Source: Candidatus Oleihabitans oleiphilus
GTDB lineage: Bacteria > Atribacterota > Phoenicimicrobiia > Phoenicimicrobiales > Stramentimicrobiaceae
NCBI GenBank assembly: GCA_018054125.1
Contig: JAGPKD010000006.1
Location: forward strand, 1 to 37,178
Length of the DNA stretch: 37,178 nucleotides
Direction of reading: 5' to 3'
Below are positions 15,950-19,222 of the stretch, in pieces (the stretch's first letter is position 1; each line of letters starts with the position of its first letter). The notes beneath the pieces were generated by a model that saw only the letters and a program-made list of their open reading frames with translations, made no database searches and was not told the DNA's origin. The position numbers were made by a program, and so were the translations under genes.

Positions 15950-16343
15950 AGAATTTAACTATGCTTTCTATAATATATTTAAGGGGAATTCTTACCCTCT
16001 TTAGAGGGGTGTCCCGCAGGGACAGGGTGTTTCCCTTGAGAACCTTTAAATTAACTTTAAGGTAATAGTTATCACCCTCACCTTACCTCTCCCTTCTAAG
16101 GGAGAGGAATATGGTATTAGAATATTATATTCTTTAAATTAAGGATAAAGATTTTTAAGAATTAGGAATTGTTAAAATCCTATACCTTAAAATATTATTT
16201 GTCAAGAAATGAATTATCTTCCATTATTTTTCTGTTAAAATTATGCTGTAGATTAGAAAACTGAGCGTCTGCCGAAAATCTGCTTGATTAAACATGAAAC
16301 ATATATTATAATAAAAAGCAATTAATAAATAAAGTTCATTCAG
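15950..16343 (+). repeat. Repeat island upstream of the tungstate operon
   Basis: No gene is visible. 15981-16043 is an inverted copy of the GGTTCTCAAGGGAAACACC...CCCCTCT module seen again at 19481-19546, 27465-27521 and 28081-28138. 16071-16108 is a copy of the CTCTCCCTT/AAGGGAGAG module. The remaining sequence to 16343 is AT-rich and probably contains the promoter of the riboswitch transcript, which I could not place. Confidence 0.75.
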
Positions 16344-16453
16344 CTAACATACTCCGAGCTATTACACCTAATACTGAAGTGATGGTGGATAGCCGACAGG
16401 GAATAAGTGGAAACATTTATTCCTCCCATGTTTGGAAAGGAGGTTGATATTAG
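16344..16453 (+). ncRNA. Moco-family riboswitch candidate (molybdenum/tungsten cofactor RNA)
   Basis: The sequence carries the features I recall for the Moco RNA motif. The first strand is ACTCCGAGC (16351-16359). Next comes a stem in which GCTAT (16358-16362) pairs with ATAGC (16389-16393) and CACC with GGTG. Then comes GCCGACAGGGA (16392-16402), a long stem GGAATAAGTG/CATTTATTCC capped by GAAA (16400-16423), and finally GGAAAGGAGG (16434-16443). CTCC and GGAG close the core. It sits directly before a terminator and tupA, as expected for an RNA that senses molybdenum or tungsten cofactor. The long third stem argues for the Moco form over the reduced tungsten-cofactor form. Assigned from memory of the consensus, without a covariance search. 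Confidence 0.75.
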
Positions 16454-16468
16454 GGAAATATATTAACC
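16442..16468 (+). promoter_or_regulatory. Anti-terminator hairpin of the riboswitch
   Basis: GGTTGATAT (16442-16450) pairs over 9 bp, with one G-U, with ATATTAACC (16460-16468). This uses the left arm of the terminator (16465-16473) and the last bases of the aptamer's closing strand. Aptamer and anti-terminator therefore exclude each other, predicting an OFF switch when ligand is bound. Confidence 0.65.
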
Positions 16469-16495
16469 AACACCAGACACAGTGTTGGTTTTTTT
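16465..16495 (+). terminator. Intrinsic terminator in the tup leader
   Basis: AACCAACAC (16465-16473) pairs perfectly with GTGTTGGTT (16482-16490) and is followed at once by a T-run (16489-16495). It lies 50 bases before tupA and after the riboswitch core, so it acts as the expression platform. Confidence 0.88.
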
Positions 16496-16544
16496 ATTAA
16501 TTTTAGGTCATTATATTAACTAATTCAGAAAGGAAATAGATTTT

Positions 16545-17378
16545 ATGAATAAATATTTTTTAAACAAGATAATTTTGGCTTTAGCAATTGTAACAATATT
16601 TACTGGGTTGGTTTTTGCTGCACCAGTAAATTTAAAACTTGCTACCACAACCAGTACTGAAAATTCAGGATTGTTGGGAATTTTGTTGCCTCCCTTTGAG
16701 GAAAGATATAATATTAAGGTTGATGTTATTGCAGTTGGTACTGGTGCTGCTATTCAATTAGGTGAAAATGGAGATGTGGATGTCGTTCTGGTTCATGCCA
16801 GAGCAGCGGAAGATAAGATGGTAGAAGAAGGTTATGGTGTGAATCGTAGAGATGTTATGCATAATGATTTTATTATTGTGGGACCACCGGATGACCCGGC
16901 AGGTATAAAAGGTGAAAAAGACGCTGCTTTAGCTCTTACCAAAATAGCTAATTCAGAAAAGCAGGTGTTTTTTGTTTCTCGTGGTGATAAATCTGGAACT
17001 CATATAAAGGAATTAGAATTATGGCAAAGTGCTGGTATTGAACCGCAAGGTGAGTGGTATCTGGAAATTGGACAGGGGATGGAAGCAGCCTTATTGGTTG
17101 CTGACGAGAGACAGGGGTATGTACTTGCCGATCGAGGAACTTATTTAGCTACCAAAGACAAAATAGAGTTAGTAATTCTTTCTGAAGGCGACCCCCGACT
17201 TTTTAATCCCTACGGTATTATTGCAGTTAACCCCGCTGTACATCCCCATGTTAAATATATGGAGGCCATGCAGCTCATTGCCTGGATGACCTCCCTAGAA
17301 GGGCAGAAGATAATTGGAGAATATAAACAACATGGAGAAGTACTATTTTTCCCTGATGCTATTCCTTTGAGTAAATAA
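16545..17378 (+). CDS. tupA: Tungstate ABC transporter, substrate-binding protein
   Basis: 277 residues with a signal peptide (1-25, ending VFAAP). The mature start KLATTTSTENSGLL holds the TTTS oxyanion-binding motif typical of TupA, followed by GTGAAIQLGENGDVDVVLVHAR and SRGDKSGTHIKELELW. TupA binds tungstate with very high affinity and prefers it over molybdate; ModA-type proteins lack this motif set. It is first in tupABC and under the upstream riboswitch. AAAGGA precedes the ATG. In anaerobes tungstate feeds aldehyde:ferredoxin oxidoreductases and some formate dehydrogenases, none of which is in the window. Confidence 0.9.
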   Translation: MNKYFLNKIILALAIVTIFTGLVFAAPVNLKLATTTSTENSGLLGILLPPFEERYNIKVDVIAVGTGAAIQLGENGDVDVVLVHARAAEDKMVEEGYGVNRRDVMHNDFIIVGPPDDPAGIKGEKDAALALTKIANSEKQVFFVSRGDKSGTHIKELELWQSAGIEPQGEWYLEIGQGMEAALLVADERQGYVLADRGTYLATKDKIELVILSEGDPRLFNPYGIIAVNPAVHPHVKYMEAMQLIAWMTSLEGQKIIGEYKQHGEVLFFPDAIPLSK

Positions 17379-17398
17379 TCAAATAACTTCTTCACTAC

Positions 17399-17430
17399 AG
17401 ATGGCACTCAATTTTATGGGGGTGCCATCT
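17399..17430 (+). promoter_or_regulatory. Hairpin between tupA and tupB
   Basis: AGATGGCAC (17399-17407) pairs perfectly with GTGCCATCT (17422-17430) around 14 bases. No T-run follows. A hairpin after the binding-protein gene could stabilise the tupA mRNA end or lower readthrough into tupBC, giving more binding protein than permease. Confidence 0.6.
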
Positions 17431-17503
17431 GGGTTATGGTCTCAAAGATATTTTCTCCTAATTGCTAAAGTGGTAAGATATAATTAATATTTGAGGTAAT
17501 ATT

Positions 17504-18196
17504 TTGAGTTTTCTCCTGGAAGGATTACAAACAGCCTTTAGTCTAATTTTCTCTTTAGATAGAGAAGTTTTTCAAATTGTATTATTCTCCTTAAGAGTAT
17601 CATCAACTGCTATTATTTTAGCTGCCTTATTAGGTATACCGCTGGGATTTTTAATTGCTGTGAAAAATTTTCGAGGGAAAAAATTCGTACTTGTTTTAGT
17701 AAACAACGCCTTAGCCTTACCTACGGTTGTAGTAGGGTTGCTGGTCTATTCTTTTATTTCTCGGGTAGGTCCATTAGGTTATTTTGGACTACTATACACT
17801 CCCACTGCCGTAATTATTGGTCAATTTTTATTAGCTACTCCAATTATTATAGCTTTAACCCATTCTGCTATACAAGGAATTGATACTAAAGTAAGAAGTA
17901 CTGCCTTAACTCTGGGCGCAACCGAAATACAGGCTGCCTGGACGGTAATTAAAGAAGCCCGTTTTGCAGTTATGTCCGCGGTAATTGCCGGATTTGGCAG
18001 AATCATTGCCGAGGTAGGAGCTGCTATGATGTTAGGTGGAAATATTAAAGGCTCTACCAGGACGATGACTACTGCGATTTCCTTAGAAACTTCCAAAGGA
18101 GAGTTTGGTTTTGGTATAGCTCTGGGAATTATTTTATTGTTAATTTCTTTAAGTATCAATGCCTTATTAAGTTATCTTCAAAGTAAAAAGGTGTAA
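17504..18196 (+). CDS. tupB: Tungstate ABC transporter, permease
   Basis: A 230-residue inner-membrane permease with about five or six hydrophobic segments and the cytoplasmic coupling motif near residues 140-170 (STALTLGATEIQAAWTVIKEARFAVMSAVIAGFGRIIAEVGAAM), the EAA loop that docks the ATPase. It belongs to the short one-permease type used by TupABC. The start is TTG at 17504, supported by GAGGT six bases upstream and by no better ATG. It is followed by tupC after 6 bases. Confidence 0.88.
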   Translation: MSFLLEGLQTAFSLIFSLDREVFQIVLFSLRVSSTAIILAALLGIPLGFLIAVKNFRGKKFVLVLVNNALALPTVVVGLLVYSFISRVGPLGYFGLLYTPTAVIIGQFLLATPIIIALTHSAIQGIDTKVRSTALTLGATEIQAAWTVIKEARFAVMSAVIAGFGRIIAEVGAAMMLGGNIKGSTRTMTTAISLETSKGEFGFGIALGIILLLISLSINALLSYLQSKKV

Positions 18197-18202
18197 ACTA
18201 AC

Positions 18203-19222
18203 ATGAATAATTTTAATTTACTCCAAGTCAGAAACCTGAAAAAATTTTATAACCAACATGTTGTGTTAGACATCCGTACTTTGAACTTTGCACAAAGTAA
18301 AGTTTATGCCATTGTAGGTCCCAATGGTTCTGGAAAAACAACCCTGCTCAATATTTTAAATTTACTTGATAATCCGGATGAAGGTCAAATATTTTTTAAA
18401 GGAAAAGATCTAAGACAATTTTCTAATAAAGATATGCTGAGAATTAAAAGACAGATAACACTGGTCCATCAAAAACCGTTTTTATTTCATACTACTGTGT
18501 ATAACAATATAGCCTATGGATTAAGAATAAGGGGTCTAACTGACCAGGAGCAGGAGAAAAGAGTAAAGAAAGCTTTACAGATGGTTGGTCTTTCGGGATT
18601 TGAGAAGAGAGATGCTTATCAACTATCGGGAGGAGAAGCCCAACGAGTAGTTATTGCCCGGGCCTTAGCTATAGAACCAGAAATACTTTTTCTGGATGAA
18701 CCCACCGTCAATATTGATAATAGATATATTAATGTTATCGAAAGAATTATCAAAAAAATTAATCAAGAATTGAATACCACCGTAATTTTCACTACTCATG
18801 ACCTTTCTCAGGCTTATCGCTTAGCTGATGAGATAGTATCATTATTAGAAGGAAGAATTGTTCCTCATGTACCTGAAAATATTTTTAGAGGGGAAATAAT
18901 TCAGGAGAATGGATTACAATGGTGTAAAGTTACCGATGATATTCGATTTTCAGTAGTAAGTAAAAAGAAAGGTTTGGCTTATATTTATATCGACCCCAGG
19001 GATATTATTTTATCCTATGAACAATTTTCATCAAGTGCCAGAAATACGTTTGCTGGGAAAATTATTAAAATTTCAGAACAGAATCATCTTATTAGATTAG
19101 TAGTAGATATTGGGGTAGAATTAATTATCGTCATTACTTATGAATCATTTCAAGAATTGCATCTTAATATAGGAAGTAAAGTATACACTACCTTTAAGGC
19201 CTCTGCGGTAAAAATTTACTAA
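18203..19222 (+). CDS. tupC: Tungstate ABC transporter, ATP-binding protein
   Basis: 339 residues. The ABC domain has Walker A GPNGSGKTT (residues 39-47), the signature LSGGEAQRV, Walker B ILFLDEPT and the switch His in FTTHDLSQA. After about residue 230 comes a C-terminal extension ending in a TOBE/Mop-like half (NTFAGKIIKISEQNHLIRLVVDIG...GSKVYTTFKASAVKIY), the kind of module that binds oxyanion in molybdate and tungstate importers and can feed back on transport. Last gene of tupABC. Confidence 0.9.
   Translation: MNNFNLLQVRNLKKFYNQHVVLDIRTLNFAQSKVYAIVGPNGSGKTTLLNILNLLDNPDEGQIFFKGKDLRQFSNKDMLRIKRQITLVHQKPFLFHTTVYNNIAYGLRIRGLTDQEQEKRVKKALQMVGLSGFEKRDAYQLSGGEAQRVVIARALAIEPEILFLDEPTVNIDNRYINVIERIIKKINQELNTTVIFTTHDLSQAYRLADEIVSLLEGRIVPHVPENIFRGEIIQENGLQWCKVTDDIRFSVVSKKKGLAYIYIDPRDIILSYEQFSSSARNTFAGKIIKISEQNHLIRLVVDIGVELIIVITYESFQELHLNIGSKVYTTFKASAVKIY

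Follow-up and report, generated by a model that had tools for sequence, protein, structure and literature searches.

What controls the tungstate importer operon tupABC in this member of the Atribacterota, a little-studied phylum, and which cofactor would its leader RNA recognise? We addressed these questions in a 37,178-nt stretch of Candidatus Oleihabitans oleiphilus DNA (the window). We consider it probable that control of tupABC lies with a P3-lacking (Tuco-type) riboswitch that ends transcription prematurely, with ligand, binding and direction of control taken from the riboswitch family; it would be a typical tungsten-type cofactor riboswitch. The aptamer family, the absence of P3, the terminator, a competing helix and the gene context were established computationally, and the features are as follows.

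16284–16312, + strand: candidate sigma-70 promoter, TTGATT-17-TATAAT (consensus scan, 10/12 matches)
16340–16458, + strand: Moco/Tuco-family riboswitch aptamer, P3-lacking (Tuco-type) form (RF01055)
16352–16442, + strand: P1 core, CTCC 16352–16355 with GGAG 16439–16442 (cmscan alignment)
16358–16393, + strand: P2 with a GAAA-receptor-like bulge, CCTAAT 16367–16372 and GATGG 16381–16385 (cmscan alignment, fold)
16399–16424, + strand: P4, 11 bp, GAAA tetraloop 16410–16413 (cmscan alignment; named after PMC2408646)
16425–16435, + strand: P5/L5, CC 16425–16426 and GG 16434–16435 (cmscan alignment)
16429–16435, + strand: putative anti-terminator 5' strand TGTTTGG, within P5/L5 (helix with 16473–16479 kept in order-mates)
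16442–16468, + strand: 9-bp hairpin 16442–16450/16460–16468, candidate accessory anti-terminator, confined to the genus (folds)
16465–16496, + strand: intrinsic terminator with 9-bp stem, 8-nt loop and T-run (sequence; stem near-invariant in 16 order-mates)
16473–16479, + strand: putative anti-terminator 3' strand CCAGACA, the final 5'-arm base of the terminator plus loop (pairs with 16429–16435)
16545–17378, + strand: tupA, predicted tungstate-binding protein (NF041772, 236.6 bits; curated cut-off of 400 not reached)
17504–18196, + strand: tupB, permease (NF038017 above cut-off; NF041773 TupB, 230.4 bits, cut-off of 320 not reached)
18203–19222, + strand: tupC, ATPase with TOBE domain (PF00005, PF03459 TOBE)

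Aptamer anatomy and downstream genes

The leader had been ascribed to the Moco riboswitch family by a first-pass annotation, which proposed an Infernal search with RF01055 as a check. That search returned a significant match with the core strands where they had been placed (75.2 bits, gathering score 36; E=1.4e-16 in the whole window). The full model length, 1–135, was covered with the P3 positions deleted, and no other Rfam family exceeded its threshold in the window. The 161-nt leader folded with a z-score of -5.4, and 0 of 200 shuffles folded equally well.

P1, P2, P4 and P5 were all present in the alignment and sequence, together with the conserved CUCCGAGC / CAGGG / UUUGGAAAGGAG core; P1 also appeared in folds of transcripts ending at 16445. 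The core strands read ACTCCGAGC (16351–16359), GCCGACAGGGA (16392–16402) and GGAAAGGAGG (16434–16443). These strands, the GAAA-capped 11-bp stem and the perfect terminator with its T-run lay at the coordinates of the first-pass annotation. The 11-bp stem, P4, contains two G-U pairs. In nearly all members of the class the GNRA loop capping P4 docks into a receptor in P2 (PMC2408646). Both elements are present here, and the receptor is near-canonical (CCTAAT...GATGG), a reading from sequence alone that predicts the same docking.

The element P3, located between P2 and P4, separates the two groups of RNAs, and P3-lacking RNAs accompany tungsten genes (PMC2408646). In the RF01055 alignment the window RNA lacks P3, and its junction reads GCC-GA-CAGGG; the two copies on contigs C34 and C142 of the same genome differ from it in carrying a P3 hairpin. 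The first-pass annotation had described a Moco form with a long third stem, and its surprise at finding such a form before a tungstate transporter arose because P4 was counted as the third stem. That GAAA-capped stem is near-universal in the class, and the deletion of the true P3 in the model alignment rules out the Moco form with P3. Since P3 is missing and TupA/B/C are encoded downstream, the alignment assigns the window RNA to the tungsten-cofactor-type (Tuco) form, for which a tungstate importer is the expected gene; its ligand is predicted from the family.

The window RNA shares with the P3-lacking Tuco subtype of PMC2408646 the P4 GAAA loop, the receptor-like bulge of P2, the core, a tungsten gene and a terminator-type platform. 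We found no difference in the aptamer itself; the pairing of a core strand with the terminator loop, described below, is absent from that paper. With P3-containing RNAs such as that of E. coli moaA, the window RNA has in common the core and P1, P2, P4 and P5. It differs in lacking P3 and in its platform, a terminator followed by a ribosome site of its own; in the moaA RNA the ribosome site lies within P1.

The three-gene order of the importer matches that of TupABC of the Eubacterium acidaminophilum type. TupA contains an ATTTSTENSG stretch, and among solved structures its best match is the periplasmic tungstate-binding protein 3lr1, at 305 bits. Unlike that type, TupA, TupB and TupC of the window all scored below the NCBIfam equivalog cut-offs: NF041772 was the only NCBIfam match of TupA, and TupC reached 253.5 bits with NF040840 WtpC (cut-off 440) and 164.1 bits with NF041774 TupC (cut-off 400). 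Between tupA and tupB lies a hairpin, CAGATGGCAC...GTGCCATCTG (17398–17434), with no T-run; perhaps it is an RNA-stability element giving more binding protein than permease.

Gene context of P3-less and P3-containing RNAs

Four RF01055 matches were found in the source genome. The C34 and C142 copies are identical, have a clear P3 (AAGAC...GTCTT) and lie upstream of a wtpB-like permease, followed on C34 by an Oxidored_molyb-domain protein and a wtpA fragment. A P3-less copy on C118 precedes genes for a ferredoxin, a tungsten AOR (PF01314, PF02730), a flavin oxidoreductase and a MoaD-like protein. With both forms in one genome, placed as the P3 rule predicts, Atribacterota would serve as a clean natural experiment on how Moco and Tuco are told apart.

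A wider set of 199 RF01055 matches was drawn from order-mates together with a broad sample across the domain; P3 was assigned by hand from the junctions, and 12 ambiguous or partial RNAs were set aside. The first gene was tupA for 39 P3-less, 1 P3-containing and 1 ambiguous RNA, and AOR for 27, 0 and 1, respectively. The ratio of P3-less to P3-containing RNAs was 66:1 before tungsten genes versus 97:23 before others (Fisher p=2e-4, which is optimistic as the rows are not phylogenetically independent). The exception to the P3 rule in the sample was a P3-containing RNA before a tupA (L180, G291:C6, match 1501–1639), given which P3 is not an absolute marker. This RNA has the arrangement that the first-pass annotation believed to be present in the window.

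The window RNA might instead sense the molybdenum cofactor, or both cofactors, despite having no P3 and tupABC downstream. The P3 rule is a correlation: the cofactor is unstable, ligand binding could not be demonstrated by Regulski et al., and deletion of P3 from the E. coli RNA merely broke regulation (PMC2408646). The single P3-containing RNA before a tupA (n=1) likewise indicates that the link between form and gene is not strict. We nevertheless regard this alternative as unlikely, in view of the split within one genome (P3-less RNAs before tup and AOR, P3-containing RNAs before the wtp/molybdopterin-protein operon) and the distribution of tupA leaders in the sample, and we retain the tungsten-cofactor-type assignment.

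Several other gene contexts were observed. In five relatives from the family of the window organism, P3-containing RNAs lie 176–309 nt upstream of an [FeFe]-hydrogenase gene (PF02906, PF02256; L042 G007:C28, L055 G008:C73, L058 G004:C20, L059 G009:C54, L094 G003:C25). This hydrogenase needs no molybdenum, and its placement under a Moco-type RNA may reflect an exchange with a molybdenum enzyme. In eight genomes, family RNAs directly precede an NAD-type aldehyde dehydrogenase (PF00171), as P3-less RNAs in G162:C1, G209:C27, G434:C23, G274:C1, G406:C1, G528:C20 and G302:C1 and as a P3-containing RNA in G423:C11. This context would fit a metal-free enzyme that replaces tungsten AOR under cofactor control. 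Further RNAs precede importers with periplasmic-binding PF01497 and FecCD PF01032 components (L072 G006:C67, L075 G003:C11, L081 G009:C117; also L091, L092 and L216). Such importers are better known for iron and B12; those downstream of the family RNAs resemble the MolBCA type of oxyanion importer.

The RNAs may also be clustered. One relative carries three within ~8 kb (L043, G004:C14:17913-26051), and in others divergent P3-containing/P3-less pairs separate wtpA from a hydrogenase or another gene (L055 G008:C73, L059 G009:C54, L066 G006:C118). In the source genome, two near-identical P3-containing leaders (L005 6339–6615 and L006 2385–2660) lie on separate contigs that diverge past the leader; the pair reflects either a genuine duplication or an assembly that mixes strains.

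Helices competing with the terminator

The terminator stem is perfect (16465–16473/16482–16490, hairpin 16465–16490) and is followed by T16491–16496; the window contains the terminator sequence once, versus 0 expected. Upstream, the promoter match is by consensus only, chance alone being expected to yield ~5 such sites in the scanned region, and it would place the transcript start near 16319. The ribosome site of tupA, AAAGGA at ~16532–16537, lies well downstream of the terminator. Given the promoter-like site upstream and the separate AAAGGA site in front of tupA, the platform most likely acts at transcription rather than at the ribosome site. The first-pass annotation had proposed an intrinsic-terminator platform with OFF-switch logic upstream of tupABC. 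The sequence and folds are in keeping with this proposal, since both a terminator and an anti-terminator sharing bases with the ligand-binding core were found; the regulation itself is predicted.

The anti-terminator named in that proposal was the 9-bp helix 16442–16450/16460–16468. The helix exists (one G-U pair, -6.7 kcal/mol) and takes in four 5'-arm bases of the terminator (16465–16468). In its favour as the main anti-terminator, competing with P1, it is stable and is kept in the sister species, where it has 10 bp. It meets P1 at G16442 only, however, and in a constrained fold 8 of its 9 pairs coexisted with P1, so the ligand could hardly displace it and it would be a weak switch alone. 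Moreover, comparison of the tupA leaders located it in two of 16 order-mates, the genus members alone, and did not find it in the 14 outside the genus. Its compatibility with P1 and its restriction to the genus led us to reject the 9-bp helix as the main switch, a role that we consider quite improbable. We view it rather as an accessory hairpin nested inside a second helix, which we add here as a better-supported anti-terminator, apparently common to the class.

This second helix pairs the aptamer core with the terminator loop. All 16 tupA-bearing order-mates have a near-identical hairpin after the aptamer, CCAACACC[AG][AG]ACACAGTGTTGG-TTTTTT, loop included, and the loop, CC[AG][AG]ACAC, is complementary to GTGTTTGG of P5/L5. 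Across the 16 Atribacterota leaders, 96.9% of cells in the core:loop helix were paired, versus 37–48% when the strands were slid. The two most variable loop positions showed A/G changes only, opposite U. Two-sided covariation was absent among these leaders, because the core strand is almost invariant within the order.

Switching was assessed on transcripts cut before the terminator 3' arm, as full-length equilibrium folds are misleading where terminators dominate, which they do in most relatives. In such window transcripts the core:loop pairing had P=0.96-0.97, and the helix contributed ~8 kcal/mol. In most relatives, core:loop or core:arm pairing likewise predominated. The core:loop helix is thus the better-supported candidate for the conserved anti-terminator, in preference to the 9-bp hairpin.

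Generality of the platform and direction of control

Terminator-bearing members of the class were compared within the 199-RNA sample, in which 92 RNAs had an intrinsic terminator nearby. After removal of similar hairpins, and with Atribacterota set aside, 33 terminators were left. Each was scored by the best uninterrupted helix of the hairpin 5' arm plus loop with its own core and with the cores of other RNAs. The 33 unrelated terminators scored 17.8 with their own cores versus 14.7 with swapped cores (p=5.5e-5). The difference disappeared with reversed hairpins of the same composition (p=0.24), a control that ruled out composition as the source of the match. The core match gave z=12.6 against base shuffles and p=4e-8 against 675 other, unrelated terminators; individually, only 13 of the 33 terminators were significant. 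Striking examples are an 18-bp core/terminator helix in G354 (TTCCTTTTTAAATATGGG with CCCGTATTTGGAAAGGAG) and one of 11 bp in G319 (CCAAGCTCGGG with CCCGAGCTTGG). Five Desulfobacterota/Proteobacteria RNAs from a pattern scan that required CCAACAC were excluded from the statistics. The Bartonella matches of that scan were rejected as chance, RF01055 being absent in the two checked.

These comparisons suggest that the terminator tends to change along with the aptamer core that competes with it. We put at about even the chances of a broader reading, in which one platform is common to terminator-bearing Moco/Tuco riboswitches across many phyla: the P5/L5 strand CCCGUNNUUGGAAAGG, the best conserved of the aptamer, would serve as the anti-terminator 5' strand, with its complement in the terminator loop or 5' arm changing together with it. 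This platform was not found described in the open-licence literature; Regulski et al. mention terminators, and the word 'anti-terminator' is absent from their paper (PMC2408646). The loop might alternatively be conserved for contact with a protein or RNA polymerase, or by recent common descent, with an incidental match to the core. The entire hairpin is near-invariant across the Atribacterota order, and its conservation alone tells little. In other phyla, however, the stems differ and yet the loop or arm matches its own core, with a positive swap test and a negative reversed control, which makes an incidental match highly improbable.

We therefore return to the core:loop helix as the putative anti-terminator. 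Without ligand, nascent 16429–16435 (the P5/L5 core) would pair with 16473–16479 (terminator loop and last 5'-arm base), with the helix 16442–16450/16460–16468 nested within this pairing in genus members. The core:loop pairing would pre-empt the terminator, and tupABC would be read. With Tuco bound, P1, P5 and L5 would be locked in the aptamer, leaving the terminator arms free to pair, and RNA polymerase would stop at ~16496. The predicted outcome is an OFF switch that shuts off tungstate uptake when the tungsten cofactor is plentiful.

The full-length equilibrium fold of the window RNA favoured anti-termination (-50.8 vs -47.0 kcal/mol), and those of most relatives favoured termination. It follows that the switch must be kinetic and that thermodynamics alone leaves the direction unsettled. 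An ON switch, which this divergence of unliganded folds would permit, is hardly credible, because one strand serves both the ligand-stabilised P1/P5/L5 and the anti-terminator, so that binding should favour termination, and because the E. coli member represses (PMC2408646). The E. coli member has been suggested to modulate termination too, in a 2025 RNA-seq method paper (PMC12121620). In this class the ligand is too unstable for standard binding assays; the proposed core:loop anti-terminator offers precise compensatory mutations as a way of testing it in vitro.

The L005 and L006 leaders each contain two successive terminator-like hairpins (AAAGCAGTGCTTTTTT, AAAAGCGCTGCTTTTTT), the arms of which are able to cross-pair.
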